From assembly GCF_021283545.2 (NCBI RefSeq), contig NZ_CP128540.1, positions 4,933,501 through 4,997,500 on the forward strand: a stretch of DNA of 64,000 nt, given 5' to 3'. This stretch comes from Pseudomonas alloputida (lineage in GTDB: Bacteria > Pseudomonadota > Gammaproteobacteria > Pseudomonadales > Pseudomonadaceae). Of this stretch, positions 6,494 through 32,943 are shown one piece after another (the first letter of the stretch is position 1; every line of letters begins with the position of its first letter). The notes under the pieces were generated by a model. That model did not search any database. It saw nothing but the letters and a program-made list of their open reading frames with translations, and was not told the DNA's origin. The position numbers and the translations under genes are program-made.

Positions 6494-6510
6494 TATAGCT
6501 ACAAGCTATA
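6494..6510. promoter_or_regulatory. 7 bp dyad upstream of cysM
   Basis: TATAGCT-ACA-AGCTATA is a perfect 7 bp inverted repeat with a 3 nt centre. It lies 83 bp upstream of the cysM start, between cysM and the REP/IS110 region. It could be an operator or part of the cysM promoter. No protein can be assigned from sequence alone. Confidence 0.35.
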
Positions 6511-6532
6511 ACGGTGTGACATGTGCTGGCTT

Positions 6533-6560
6533 CTTCGCGGGTGAACCCGCTCCTACAGGG
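6533..6560. repeat. REP palindrome, first half of the REP pair hit by the IS
   Basis: cttcgcgggtgaacccgctc followed by ctacagg is an intact REP. Its inverted partner began at 6571 (cctgtaggag) and is split by the IS110 element; the rest resumes at 7897. Confidence 0.85.
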
Positions 6561-6570
6561 GATTCGCAAG

Positions 6571-6580
6571 CCTGTAGGAG
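6571..6580. repeat. left fragment of the REP split by the IS
   Basis: cctgtaggag at 6571-6580 joined to cgggtttacccgcgaag at 7897-7913 rebuilds a complete REP identical to intact copies at 1775-1800 and 48369-48393. The two-base core AG (CT on the transposase strand) is present at both junctions (6579-6580 and 7895-7896). Confidence 0.9.
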
Positions 6581-6593
6581 ATTCTATGGCCGG

Positions 6594-6599
6594 AGGCAA
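6594..6599 (-). promoter_or_regulatory. -35 half of the circle-junction promoter (IS right end)
   Basis: TTGCCT on the minus strand near the right end of the element. When the ends are joined in an excised circle it lies exactly 17 bp upstream of the TATGGT at 7887-7892. In the linear element the two halves are about 1.3 kb apart, so the promoter exists only after excision. Confidence 0.55.
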
Positions 6600-6725
6600 A
6601 TTTTCAGTAAAAACGCCATCGGCCTCTCTCAGCAACCTCGAGGTACGAGTCAGCGTGCCAGAGAATTTCTCCCCAGCATTGGATACTGCCCGTCAGTTTG
6701 GGCGGGCTGCGTTGCAGCCCCAGCC

Positions 6726-7691
6726 TCAGCTGGCCGGCTTGGCACCTCCGGTATATATCTCGGGCTTCCAGTCGGCCTGATGCCTCATCAGGCCGAAGGC
6801 CAGCCGAGCCAAGCGACGTGCAAGGATCACCAAGGCTTGAGTGGTTTTCTTCCCCCGGGCTTGGTGATGGGCGTAATACTGCTTCCAGGTCGCGGTTCGA
6901 CTGCCGCTCATCGAGGCGTTGTACAGGAGTCTACGGACCTCCGAGTCTCCGCGCTTGCTCAACTTCCCTCTGCCTGCCCATTTACCGGATTGGGAAACCG
7001 TTACATCCATGCCTAGATAAGCGACAAAGGCGTCGCTGTTCTTGAACTCGCCGCGCATGAAGGACATCACCAGGCCGGCAGCCGTTAAGAAACCAACACC
7101 CGGAAGCCTCTGAACACGGCGCATCTGATCGGAAAGCCCCGCCTTCTTGATCACCGCACGCAGCTGTTTTTCCAGCGAAAGCTCTATGCGTTCGAGCACT
7201 TCCTCAACACGTTTGAGTTCTGAGGCAAACAATTTGTCGCCCGACAAGCTCATCCGCAGCATGCCGCGCACTGCTACAAGTTTGGCGCGGCGGCGCAGCA
7301 GCACCTGGATCTCACGATGCCCGGCTGGTGGCGGAGTCCAAGCCTTCAAAGAGCCCCGCTCGTTGCTCAGGAAGCGGGCGAGCAAAGCGGCATCATGGGC
7401 ATCTGTTTTTGCCCGTATAGCAACACTTTCCCGGTACTTACTCAGCCTCAGCCCATCGATAACGTATACCGCGAAGCCCGCAGCATGGGCTTGCTCCGCC
7501 ATTTCCATGTGATAGGTACTGGTCGCTTCGATGGCCAGCGCTGAGCCTTTGGGCAGCGTCTTGAGCCAGGCTTTGATTGCTTTCGGAGTGTTAGGGATGG
7601 CGAAGGATTTGGTATTCGGAGCGGCTTGAATCACCAGTTCATCTTTGGAGGTGTCCACGCCAGCTTCGATTGGGATTGCGGACATTGCCAT
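6726..7691 (-). CDS. IS110-family transposase (DEDD recombinase)
   Basis: A 321 aa recombinase. The N-terminal RuvC-like domain (about 8-165) carries the DEDD set at D13 (GVDTSK), E55 (AIEATSTYH), D97 and D100 (TDAHDAALLARF). The C-terminal Transposase_20 domain (about 185-290) has the helix-hairpin-helix RVQRLPGVGFLTAAGLV and the VSQSGKWAGRGKLSKRG block that contains the probable catalytic serine (S233 or S235). It is intact with no frameshift, so the element is potentially active. In this family, recombination between target and circular donor is directed by an element-encoded bridge RNA (shown for IS621). The ATG at 7689-7691 is 10 bp after GGAGCAG. Confidence 0.93.
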   Translation of the reverse strand: MAMSAIPIEAGVDTSKDELVIQAAPNTKSFAIPNTPKAIKAWLKTLPKGSALAIEATSTYHMEMAEQAHAAGFAVYVIDGLRLSKYRESVAIRAKTDAHDAALLARFLSNERGSLKAWTPPPAGHREIQVLLRRRAKLVAVRGMLRMSLSGDKLFASELKRVEEVLERIELSLEKQLRAVIKKAGLSDQMRRVQRLPGVGFLTAAGLVMSFMRGEFKNSDAFVAYLGMDVTVSQSGKWAGRGKLSKRGDSEVRRLLYNASMSGSRTATWKQYYAHHQARGKKTTQALVILARRLARLAFGLMRHQADWKPEIYTGGAKPAS

Positions 7692-7696
7692 GAATA

Positions 7697-7880
7697 GCTG
7701 CTCCTTGTAGCGTAGTGTGACTTGAAGGGCACACCCTGGCGCAGGCTTGCTTCTATTGTCGCTTGCTCGCGAGGCATTCCTTATCGGCGCTTGGGTGTTG
7801 AAAGGAGGAGGGGTGATTTCTCCTACGGTCTGTACTGCGCGAACAGTCAGAAGCGAGTTATGGCCCTCCTCCTCCCTTCA
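7697..7880 (-). ncRNA. candidate bridge RNA of the IS110 element
   Basis: The noncoding left end, read on the transposase strand, folds as a target-binding loop. A 9 bp stem (7864-7872 with 7804-7812) encloses ACTCGCT at 7852-7858, an apical hairpin at 7830-7850, and GTAGGAG at 7820-7826. ACUCGCU pairs fully (one U:G wobble) with the strand opposite ACCCGCT, the left target half plus core. GUAGGAG pairs perfectly with CTCCTAC, the core plus right target half. A second loop holds AATAGAA (7751-7757), matching the right-end tip, and TACAAG (7704-7709), complementary to the left-end tip CTTGTA. A GTGTG/CACAC hairpin lies between them. Exact RNA ends are not visible from sequence. Confidence 0.65.
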
Positions 7881-7884
7881 AGTC

Positions 7885-9261
7885 CTACCATACAAGCGGG
7901 TTTACCCGCGAAGAGGCCGGCACATGCAACGGCAACCTCATCCACAAGCGCAACCCGCGTTTGCCATTCTGCGCCCACAAGGTGCCGCCCTGGCGCTGGA
8001 TGGCACTGCGGGCGATGCTCAGCCCCAGGCCGAAGCCACCATCCCCGGGCCGCGAACCGTCCAACCGCGAAAACGGCGCGAAGATCCGTTCCAGGTCTTC
8101 TTCAGCCACCCCGCCACCCTCATCCTCAAGCCACAACCACCAATAGCTACCCTCACGCTGCCCACCCAACCGCACCACACCCTCGGCCGGCGAGTGGCGA
8201 ATGGCATTGCGCAAGATGTTCTCCAGCGCCTGAGCCAGGTGGTTGAGGTTGCCCTGCACCCAGCAGTCGGCCGGTACTTCGCAGCGCAGTTGCGCAGGCG
8301 ACCAGCCGCTCTCGTAGCTGGCATTTTCGGCCAGCAACTCCCACAAGGCGTGGACCTCGATCGGCTCAAGGTTCATCGGCGCACGCTCGGCGTCCTGCCA
8401 GGCCAGTTGCAGGGTGTCTTCAACCAATTGCTGCATGCAGTCCACTTCACGGATCAGGCGATCACGCAGACGCTGCAGGTCGGTTTCACCATCGCAGGCC
8501 ACCCGCAGCCGGCTCAGCGGCGTGCGCATTTCGTGGGACAGGTCGCGCAGCAACTGCTGCTGCATAGCCACCGTGCCTTGCAGCCGCTCGGCCATCTGGT
8601 CAAAGGCACGCGCCAGTTCGCCCAATTCGTCATGCCGGGCGATGGTGCGCGAGTCCAGGCGGGCCGACAGCTGATCGGCCCGCCAGGCATTGGCCTGCTC
8701 GCGAAGTTGGTTCAGCGGCACGATCAGCATGCGGTACAGGCCTACACACAACAGCAAGGTGAACAGCCCCGGGATGATGCCGTTGGTGACAATGCGCCAC
8801 AGCAAGCGGTGCTGGCCCGGATTGAAGCGCTGCGGCAGTTCGATCACCAGCATGCCCTGCTCCGGCGCCCCCGGGAACGGTATGCGCACCCACGGCTGGT
8901 CGACACTGCGCCGACTCATCGGCCAATCGACACCGCGCAGGCGCGTCAGACGCTGCATGATCTGTGGGTTGAGTGTGGCGCTGTCGAGCGGGCGCAGGTT
9001 GATGTCGAGCACCCCGACCCAGCCCCGTTCGCGCTGATGCATGGCCGCCACCCACTGGTCCAGCCCTGCCCGCCCGCCACTGCGCCAGGCCTGTTCAGCT
9101 TCGGCGGCATAACCCCGCAAGGTCTGGCGTGCCGGCTCCGAGAGGAAGGCATTCTGGGTTTCCATGTGCCGGCCCCAGGTATAACTGAGGCCGATCATCA
9201 GCAGGCAGAAGCCCACCAGCAAGATGGCCAGCTTCCAGAACAGCGAATGGCGGTCGAGCAT
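7885..9261 (-). CDS. pirS: sensor histidine kinase, PirS-like
   Basis: A 458 aa inner-membrane kinase with TM1 at about 9-28, a periplasmic domain at about 30-158, TM2 at about 159-180, HAMP, and an H-box with H243 in RDLSHEMRTPLSRLR. The ATPase domain has NILRNAIRHSP, a G1 box (LEDEGGGV) and a G2 box (GGFGLGLSIA). The name rests on position: in P. aeruginosa, gacS-pirR-pirS-pirA-cysM share this order, and PirRS controls the ferric enterobactin receptor PirA. No pirA is present here. The last residues (ASSRVNPLVW) are encoded by REP and IS sequence. The stop TAG at 7885-7887 lies inside the IS, so the insertion changed the C-terminus. Confidence 0.8.
   Translation of the reverse strand: MLDRHSLFWKLAILLVGFCLLMIGLSYTWGRHMETQNAFLSEPARQTLRGYAAEAEQAWRSGGRAGLDQWVAAMHQRERGWVGVLDINLRPLDSATLNPQIMQRLTRLRGVDWPMSRRSVDQPWVRIPFPGAPEQGMLVIELPQRFNPGQHRLLWRIVTNGIIPGLFTLLLCVGLYRMLIVPLNQLREQANAWRADQLSARLDSRTIARHDELGELARAFDQMAERLQGTVAMQQQLLRDLSHEMRTPLSRLRVACDGETDLQRLRDRLIREVDCMQQLVEDTLQLAWQDAERAPMNLEPIEVHALWELLAENASYESGWSPAQLRCEVPADCWVQGNLNHLAQALENILRNAIRHSPAEGVVRLGGQREGSYWWLWLEDEGGGVAEEDLERIFAPFSRLDGSRPGDGGFGLGLSIARSAIQRQGGTLWAQNGKRGLRLWMRLPLHVPASSRVNPLVW
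7887..7892 (-). promoter_or_regulatory. -10 half of the circle-junction promoter (IS left end)
   Basis: TATGGT on the minus strand, 4 of 6 matches to the -10 consensus, close to the left tip. Paired with TTGCCT at 6594-6599 across the joined ends it gives a 17 bp spacer, and would start transcription near 7880, at the first base of the predicted bridge RNA. Confidence 0.55.
7897..7915. repeat. right fragment of the REP split by the IS
   Basis: cgggtttacccgcgaagag continues the REP whose first part is at 6571-6580. It also encodes part of the C-terminal tail of the PirS-like kinase on the minus strand. Confidence 0.85.
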
Positions 9262-32806: not shown

Positions 32807-32943
32807 GCAAAAAAAGGGGCGGTTTGACCCGCCCACATTTTTTTCCGTAGTCCCTGCTTGTCCCAAACATCATCCTGATGAAATCGCTTCTTGCGATGTC
32901 CCTGGCCTTCATCCTGAAAGCCTGTGCATGTCCCTGTGCACAG
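32807..32943 (-). ncRNA. rsmZ: regulatory small RNA RsmZ
   Basis: RsmZ sequesters the translational repressors RsmA/RsmE when Gac signalling is on. The minus strand here carries seven GGA motifs (complements at 32844, 32851, 32861, 32873, 32899, 32912, 32931), several in hairpin loops such as CATC-AGGA-GATG. It ends in a hairpin GGGCGG-GTCAAA-CCGCCC followed by CTTTTTTT. The gene lies between fdxA and rpoS, its conserved site in pseudomonads. A promoter and a GacA box lie upstream. The 5' end is estimated from the -10 element. Confidence 0.88.
32809..32834 (-). terminator. rsmZ intrinsic terminator
   Basis: A 6 bp stem (complement of 32817-32822 and 32829-32834) with a 6 nt loop followed by seven Ts on the minus strand. 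Confidence 0.88.

Follow-up and report, generated by a model that had tools for sequence, protein, structure and literature searches.

We analysed a 64,000-nucleotide stretch of Pseudomonas alloputida DNA (the window), in which an IS110-family insertion sequence interrupts a REP. The element and its target comprise the following features.

6579..7896, minus strand: IS110-family insertion sequence, 1316 bp with one CT core counted
6726..7691, minus strand: recombinase of 321 aa, with a DEDD RuvC-like domain and a C-terminal domain with a serine
7692..7896, minus strand: noncoding left end (LE), 205 nt
7724..7896, minus strand: region sharing homology with relatives' left ends (covariance model R1), holding the predicted bridge RNA
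7897..7903, minus strand: left target half AAACCCG of the interrupted REP, identical in 6/6 copies
6574..6578, minus strand: right target half CCTAC of the interrupted REP, identical in 6/6 copies

The CT cores of the element lie at 7895-7896 and 6579-6580. The recombinase contains the domains PF01548 and PF02371, and a PDB sequence search with it returned IS621 (8wt6, E 7.4e-23) and ISCro4 (9t56). Its residues D13, E55, D97, D100 and S235 align with the catalytic residues of IS621, as these are named in the available text of PMC11208158. The element shows the traits of the IS110 group: a DEDD RuvC domain with a C-terminal domain carrying a conserved serine, and 205 noncoding nt upstream of tnp versus 145 nt downstream. 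Subterminal repeats of 11-13 bp were absent, and inspection revealed only CCATA/TATGG near the element ends.

The genome holds six copies of the element, which share their ends but differ in their outer flanks, indicating separate insertions. All six entered the REP at the same point, GGGTAAACCCG-CT-CCTAC, and read ...TTCGCGGGTAAACCCG-[CT LE ... RE]-CTCCTAC; their noncoding left ends are identical. A genome sequence search with the element gave six full-length matches, the rest being short and weak, and a covariance model gave six matches for the six copies. Neither search found orphan bridge RNAs or mini-elements in this genome.

Predicted fold and guides of the left end

We then examined the left end on the recombinase strand. 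Its predicted fold (MFE -64.5 kcal/mol, z -3.63) contains two large loops, and only 1 of 200 shuffles folded as well. The predicted fold contains these parts.

7868..7881, minus strand: closing stem of the target-binding loop, 5' arm (MFE fold and relatives)
7852..7859, minus strand: left target guide AACUCGCU, pairing with the strand opposite AACCCGCT with one U:G wobble
7829..7851, minus strand: apical hairpin between the two target guides (MFE fold)
7820..7826, minus strand: right target guide GUAGGAG, the complement of CTCCTAC
7798..7811, minus strand: closing stem of the target-binding loop, 3' arm (MFE fold and relatives)
7793..7798, minus strand: closing stem of the presumed donor-binding loop, 5' arm (MFE fold)
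7731..7736, minus strand: closing stem of the presumed donor-binding loop, 3' arm (MFE fold)

The first loop thus runs stem, AACUCGCU, hairpin, GUAGGAG, stem, and the two guides pair with opposite strands of one REP, across its core. Both include the core dinucleotide (CU in the left guide, AG in the right), and the exact complement of the guides is ACTCGCTCCTAC. In the free MFE fold the CUC of the left guide forms three pairs with the GAG of the right guide, so that the loop is not fully open, and position 7798 is assigned to the second loop.

An earlier sequence-only reading had proposed a bridge RNA here, and much of its anatomy was borne out. ACTCGCT at 7852-7858 and GTAGGAG at 7820-7826 lie where it put them and pair with the REP as described, in the order left guide, hairpin, right guide known from IS621 (PMC11208160 and PMC11208158, both cited for the text available). 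The left guide ACUCGCU is real and extends by one base to AACUCGCU, and the hairpin given as 7830-7850 is present with bounds one base wider on each side. The 205-nt noncoding left end was also correct, although the proposed RNA span, 7697-7880, falls slightly short at both ends. The 9-bp closing stem (7864-7872/7804-7812) needed revision: its complementarity exists, as one register of a GGAGGAGG repeat, but the MFE fold and the relatives favour 7868-7881/7798-7811.

To gauge chance matches, the left end was shuffled 60,000 times by mononucleotide. The two guides turned up in their proper order and 10-40 nt apart in 20 of these shuffles, while the right guide alone matched 818 times and the left guide alone, with wobble allowed, 12,474 times. 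Taken alone, the left guide would carry little weight, and it is the relatives that make the argument convincing.

Among those relatives, an ungapped closing-stem run of 10-14 bp was found in 36/40 left ends, checked sequence by sequence. This check replaced RNAalifold on a MAFFT alignment, which misplaced the repetitive stem. In the apical hairpin one pair changes from UA to CG in 3/24 relatives, and one from CG to UA in 1/24. Covariance model R1, built from 24 relatives without the element itself and its nearest relative G009 (73% identical), found 7724-7896 in the window with 154.5 bits (E 1.7e-42); of its two further matches in the window, one (E 0.0012) was to the reverse strand of this same stretch and the other had E 0.46. 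Rfam gave no match over the left end at the gathering score, and at E up to 5 gave three below-threshold matches in 6500-8000, none of them a transposon RNA. A PrrB/RsmZ regulatory RNA lies at 32809-32942 of the window (133.1 bits).

Covariation of guides and targets among relatives

Matches to the recombinase with E <= 1e-20 were present in 60/298 genomes of the genus. We used 39 genomes and two named records, forming 41 groups with 117 loci; copies per genome were fetched in part. Three groups were set aside, G066 because its locus truncates the left end, JTM40 for too short a right flank and G186 for a left flank without a REP, which gave 38 usable elements. Element ends were located by motif, with CTTGTAT for LE and ATAGAATCT, or GGTATCT in G266, for RE. 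These ends agreed with the points where copies of one genome stop matching, except in G080, G010, G245 and G039, where, on one side, the copy-comparison walk halted within the element. A scan of genome contigs added two distant relatives, and weak model matches occurred in G103, G215, G263, G278 and G281, many at contig ends. G046, considered as a shortened element, was dropped, its gap being a run of N. Three loci stood out. In G066 (L014) a relative is present twice, its copies separated by about 1.35 kb and lying in two neighbouring REPs; in G091 (L022) a relative has a left end of only 127 nt, which by eye keeps the target loop but lacks the second loop entirely; and in G186 (L026) the left flank shows the motif of the right flank again in place of a REP half, which may reflect a rearranged copy.

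Guides were located by the hairpin anchor, the right guide and G266 by motif, and some by hand. The best right match, 7/7 bases, lay at the right-guide place in 37/38 elements, with one mismatch in the exception, G080. For the left target, scanned over the left end except its first 8 nt, the best match was the guide place in 34/38 elements: at -9 relative to the hairpin in 32, at -10 in G128, and in its own register in G266 (9/9). In G245, G214, G091 and WH4 the best match was not at the guide place. The left-guide core bases are CU in 5/38 elements (this one, G009, G094, WH4 and G266), AU in 28 and CA in 4, with G128 shifted, and the target core is CT.

The changes in guides are mirrored in targets. 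This element pairs GUAGGAG with CTCCTAC, and G009 pairs GUGGGAG with CTCCCAC. G094 has AGUUCGCU and GUAGGAG for the target AGTTCG-CT-CCTAC, and G070 (GCCGG), G296 (GCCAG) and G018 (AAUUCG) carry further guide variants with targets to match. The distant element G266, about 31% identical, has ACCCACCCU and UUUGUAG for ACCCACC-CT-ACAAA.

To quantify this, we shuffled targets, taken as the majority letters per genome, among the 38 elements. Observed guide-target pairing was 423.5/456, and the shuffles had a mean of 375.1 (sd 4.57) and a best of 401; 0/20,000 reached the observed value, with G128, shifted by one base, misaligned in these shuffles. The observed pairing was likewise never reached without G266 or among the 23 distinct guide/target classes. 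Targets of related elements therefore do co-vary with the segments at 7852-7858 and 7820-7826, the point on which the sequence-only reading had staked itself.

At one left-guide base, 88 copies could be tabulated: C guides sat in 26 C and 1 T targets, and U guides in 50 T, 10 C and 1 A. This element's six copies are among the ten that combine a U guide with a C target. The table covers 88/116 copies, leaving out 20 copies of G266, G080, G296, G070, WH4 and G128, 6 copies whose left flank lacks the CG end, JTM40 and G186. The asymmetry between U and C guides is what one would predict from a U that can pair with either A or G.

We also compared independent pairs on the recombinase tree, without G266 and G080 and, at the main guide base, also without WH4, G091 and G214; G128 was set by hand for this, for the abundance test and for the comparison with host REP types and the second tree given below. 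At the main base a mean of 5.7/6 pairs changed in the same direction and 0 in the opposite one (median p 0.031). Both pairs for the right guide agreed (2/2). Three other left-guide positions each gave about 2 same and 0 opposite of 3-4 pairs, too few for a test, and a fourth gave no pairs. A second tree, without the long rows G266 and WH4 and restricted to REP-counted genomes, gave 3/3 pairs in the same direction, again too few. Among 13 further left ends compared at the five core-adjacent bases, 8 matched, 2 (both G066) matched with wobble and 3 had one mismatch; two loci were unreadable.

The match has exceptions. This element's own left guide forms a wobble with its target. In G004 and G139 the guide GCCCG mismatches its target by one base in every one of the 5 copies, the target being GCCCC in four and GCTCG in one, and guides of G011, G216, G254 and G245 differ from their targets at at least one base, outside or inside the five core-adjacent bases. 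The GCCAG guides of G143 and G283 sit in GCCCG at 3/4 loci, 1/3 copies of G214 matches, and G091 and WH4 fit poorly.

These data bear on the possibility that the left end is mainly a structured 5' untranslated region hiding the recombinase start site, its REP likeness being secondary. Start-site hiding has been proposed for ISPpu9, which has a structured 244-nt 5'-UTR (PMC8450116, available text), and the left end here folds stably. Such a role does not predict loop letters that co-vary with the inserted target, however, and about 130 nt separate the end of the right guide from the start codon of the recombinase. We consider this account improbable, and a 5'-UTR role could coexist with a guide role.

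Choice between REP types

Guide choice can be separated from target supply in genomes with two REP types, and several carry both GCCCGCTCCCAC and GCTCGCTCCCAC. In the 13 mixed-REP genomes, defined by a rarer type of >= 10%, 35/38 copies lay in the type that matches the guide by Watson-Crick pairing, where 21.9 were expected from abundance (P 3.9e-7; 38/39 fetched copies, treated as independent insertions). The remaining three, one from G213 and two from G100, have a U guide and lie in C targets. The guide-matching type was chosen even where rarer in G205 (2/2) and G254 (2/2); in G100 this held for only 1/3, the other two copies lying in the commoner, wobble-paired type. The genome of this element contains 323 uninterrupted ACCCGCTCCTAC sites (12 for a reversed-pattern control), 241 of GCCCGCTCCCAC and 14 of AC[CT]CGCTCCCAC. 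All 6/6 copies lie in ACCCGCTCCTAC, which has a probability of ~0.03 by abundance, by arithmetic on these counts.

The protein alone might pick the REP, with guides coming to resemble host REPs by descent or mutation. Guides do agree with the commoner REP type of the host: 7/7 C-guide genomes are C-major and 12/15 U-guide genomes T-major, two of the 15 being nearly tied (Fisher p 0.0007, kinship ignored; 2.9/3 tree pairs in the same direction). In mixed genomes, however, the type that holds the copies is the one matched by the guide, even if it is the rarer one (G205 and G254, but only one of three in G100), and the IS621 precedent (PMC11208160, available text) argues against this account too, which we regard as very improbable. 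The least credible proposal is that the two segments are REP remnants captured from the flank with no guiding role: each does match REP letters, but in most of the 38 elements they match opposite strands and flank a conserved hairpin in a constant order, the distant G266 has quite different, equally matching segments, and in genomes where other types abound the copies favour the REPs that their guides match.

The anatomy of the left end, its pairing with the REP, its covariation with targets among relatives, and the preference of copies for guide-matching over other abundant REPs all point to a left end that very probably encodes an IS110-group bridge RNA guiding the recombinase to one REP type. 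The two guides of the first loop would pair with the two strands of this REP across the CT core, and the second loop would probably pair with the element's own joined ends. By analogy with IS621, we infer that this strand gives rise to the RNA and that the RNA is loaded on the recombinase, which would use it to insert the excised circle into that REP; loading and chemistry would follow IS621, as would transcription, perhaps from a promoter formed at the joined ends of the circle.

It also seems somewhat favoured by the data that REP-targeting IS110 guides in Pseudomonas evolve with the host REP type by point changes, a guide U being degenerate (reading T- and C-type REPs) and a C reading one type. 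If so, the element would follow REP turnover across species with its protein mechanism unchanged, and the U/C asymmetry suggests a wobble rule of interest for programmable recombinases.

Presumed donor loop, candidate junction promoter and known systems

The second loop is present in the predicted fold, and the donor end is nearly invariant among relatives. Candidate donor guides, suggested by inspection, and promoter-like boxes are as follows.

7776..7785, minus strand: candidate left donor guide GAUAAGGAAU, against donor ATAGAAT, needing a bulge or mismatch
7746..7756, minus strand: candidate right donor guide AU...CAAG, against donor CTTGTAT
7887..7892, minus strand: -10-like TATGGT in LE, 4/6 to consensus
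6594..6599, minus strand: -35-like TTGCCT in the right end, 4/6 to consensus, weak

The candidate right donor guide resembles the discontiguous right donor guide of IS621 in the available text of PMC11208158. In the distant G266, ACGGTATCT in the left end matches its own right end by inspection. TTGCCT-17-TATGGT attains its 17-bp spacing only when the ends join as a circle, making it a weak candidate for a junction promoter; in G070, G160 and G290 the flank holds a better -35 than the circle junction. A promoter scan of the inserted sequence found none, which says little as shuffles average 0.4. The 5' end of the predicted bridge RNA probably lies near 7880, judging solely by the -10-like box.

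Bridge RNAs are established for IS621 of E. coli, and we compared the element with it using the available text of PMC11208160 and PMC11208158. The two share a left-end RNA (predicted here) with two loops, the order left guide, hairpin, right guide, a CT core, a REP target, a DEDD and serine recombinase, and the right donor CTTGTAT, which for IS621 we deduced from the pairing list of PMC11208158. In both, the guide also forms a natural pair with its usual REP target that is not of the Watson-Crick type (PMC11208160 for IS621): the IS621 loop encodes ATCGGGCCTAC and its usual target is ATCAGGCCTAC, so the wobble here is not unusual. In contrast, the recombinases are distant (E 7.4e-23), the target here is a Pseudomonas REP, and the guides measure 8 nt (left) and 7 nt (right) here versus 9 and 4 in IS621. 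A 5' stem-loop before the target-binding loop, structurally conserved among orthologues (PMC11208158), is absent from the predicted fold here, whose first 16 nt are unpaired; the distant records JTM40 and WH4 have longer stretches there, hairpin-like by eye. We do not take its absence as decisive evidence against a bridge RNA; its deletion only slightly reduced recombination in PMC11208158.

The mechanism is thus already known from IS621 and predicted for ISPpu10; what is added is a natural data set on guide-REP covariation, a series of guide-target pairs for a REP-directed clade. It gives support, from sequence alone, that bridge RNA guides predict the landing site of an element. A limited literature search, by title or the start of the abstract, found no paper on guide-REP covariation across Pseudomonas elements.

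ISPpu10 of P. putida KT2440 is likewise an IS110-family element with a REP target; according to the available text of PMC1525189, it inserts between REP bases 9 and 10 with a 2-bp repeat, and ISPpu9 and ISPpu10 lie in REPs at one point. It is among six elements with predicted guides in the Extended Data Fig. 10 legend of PMC11208160. An "ISPpu10 transposase" of Alcanivorax is 53% identical to the recombinase here, and plasmid searches bearing on ISPpu9/ISPpu10 identity found nothing. The ISPa11 seekRNA (IS1111 family; PMC11187229, available text) co-purifies with its transposase and also has guides to a Pseudomonas REP, but there the RNA lies downstream of tnp and the guide order is reversed.

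ISPpu9, as described in the available text of PMC8450116, resembles this element in its REP target with a 2-bp repeat, its IS110/IS492 family and its structured RNA upstream of tnp. Two sRNAs are described for it, Asr9 in antisense and Ssr9 in sense orientation, along with the structured 5'-UTR of 244 nt. Compared by description, its 5'-UTR begins about 84 nt into the element, whereas the left end here spans 205 nt, and its extra ssr9 segment has no counterpart that we found in this genome. From that text only, the sense RNA Ssr9 (~180 nt) is a possible second bridge RNA, and the orphan ssr9 copies could represent mini-elements. In the same text, the B-AG-A box junction before ssr9 in KT2440 reads like a joined right end and left end.
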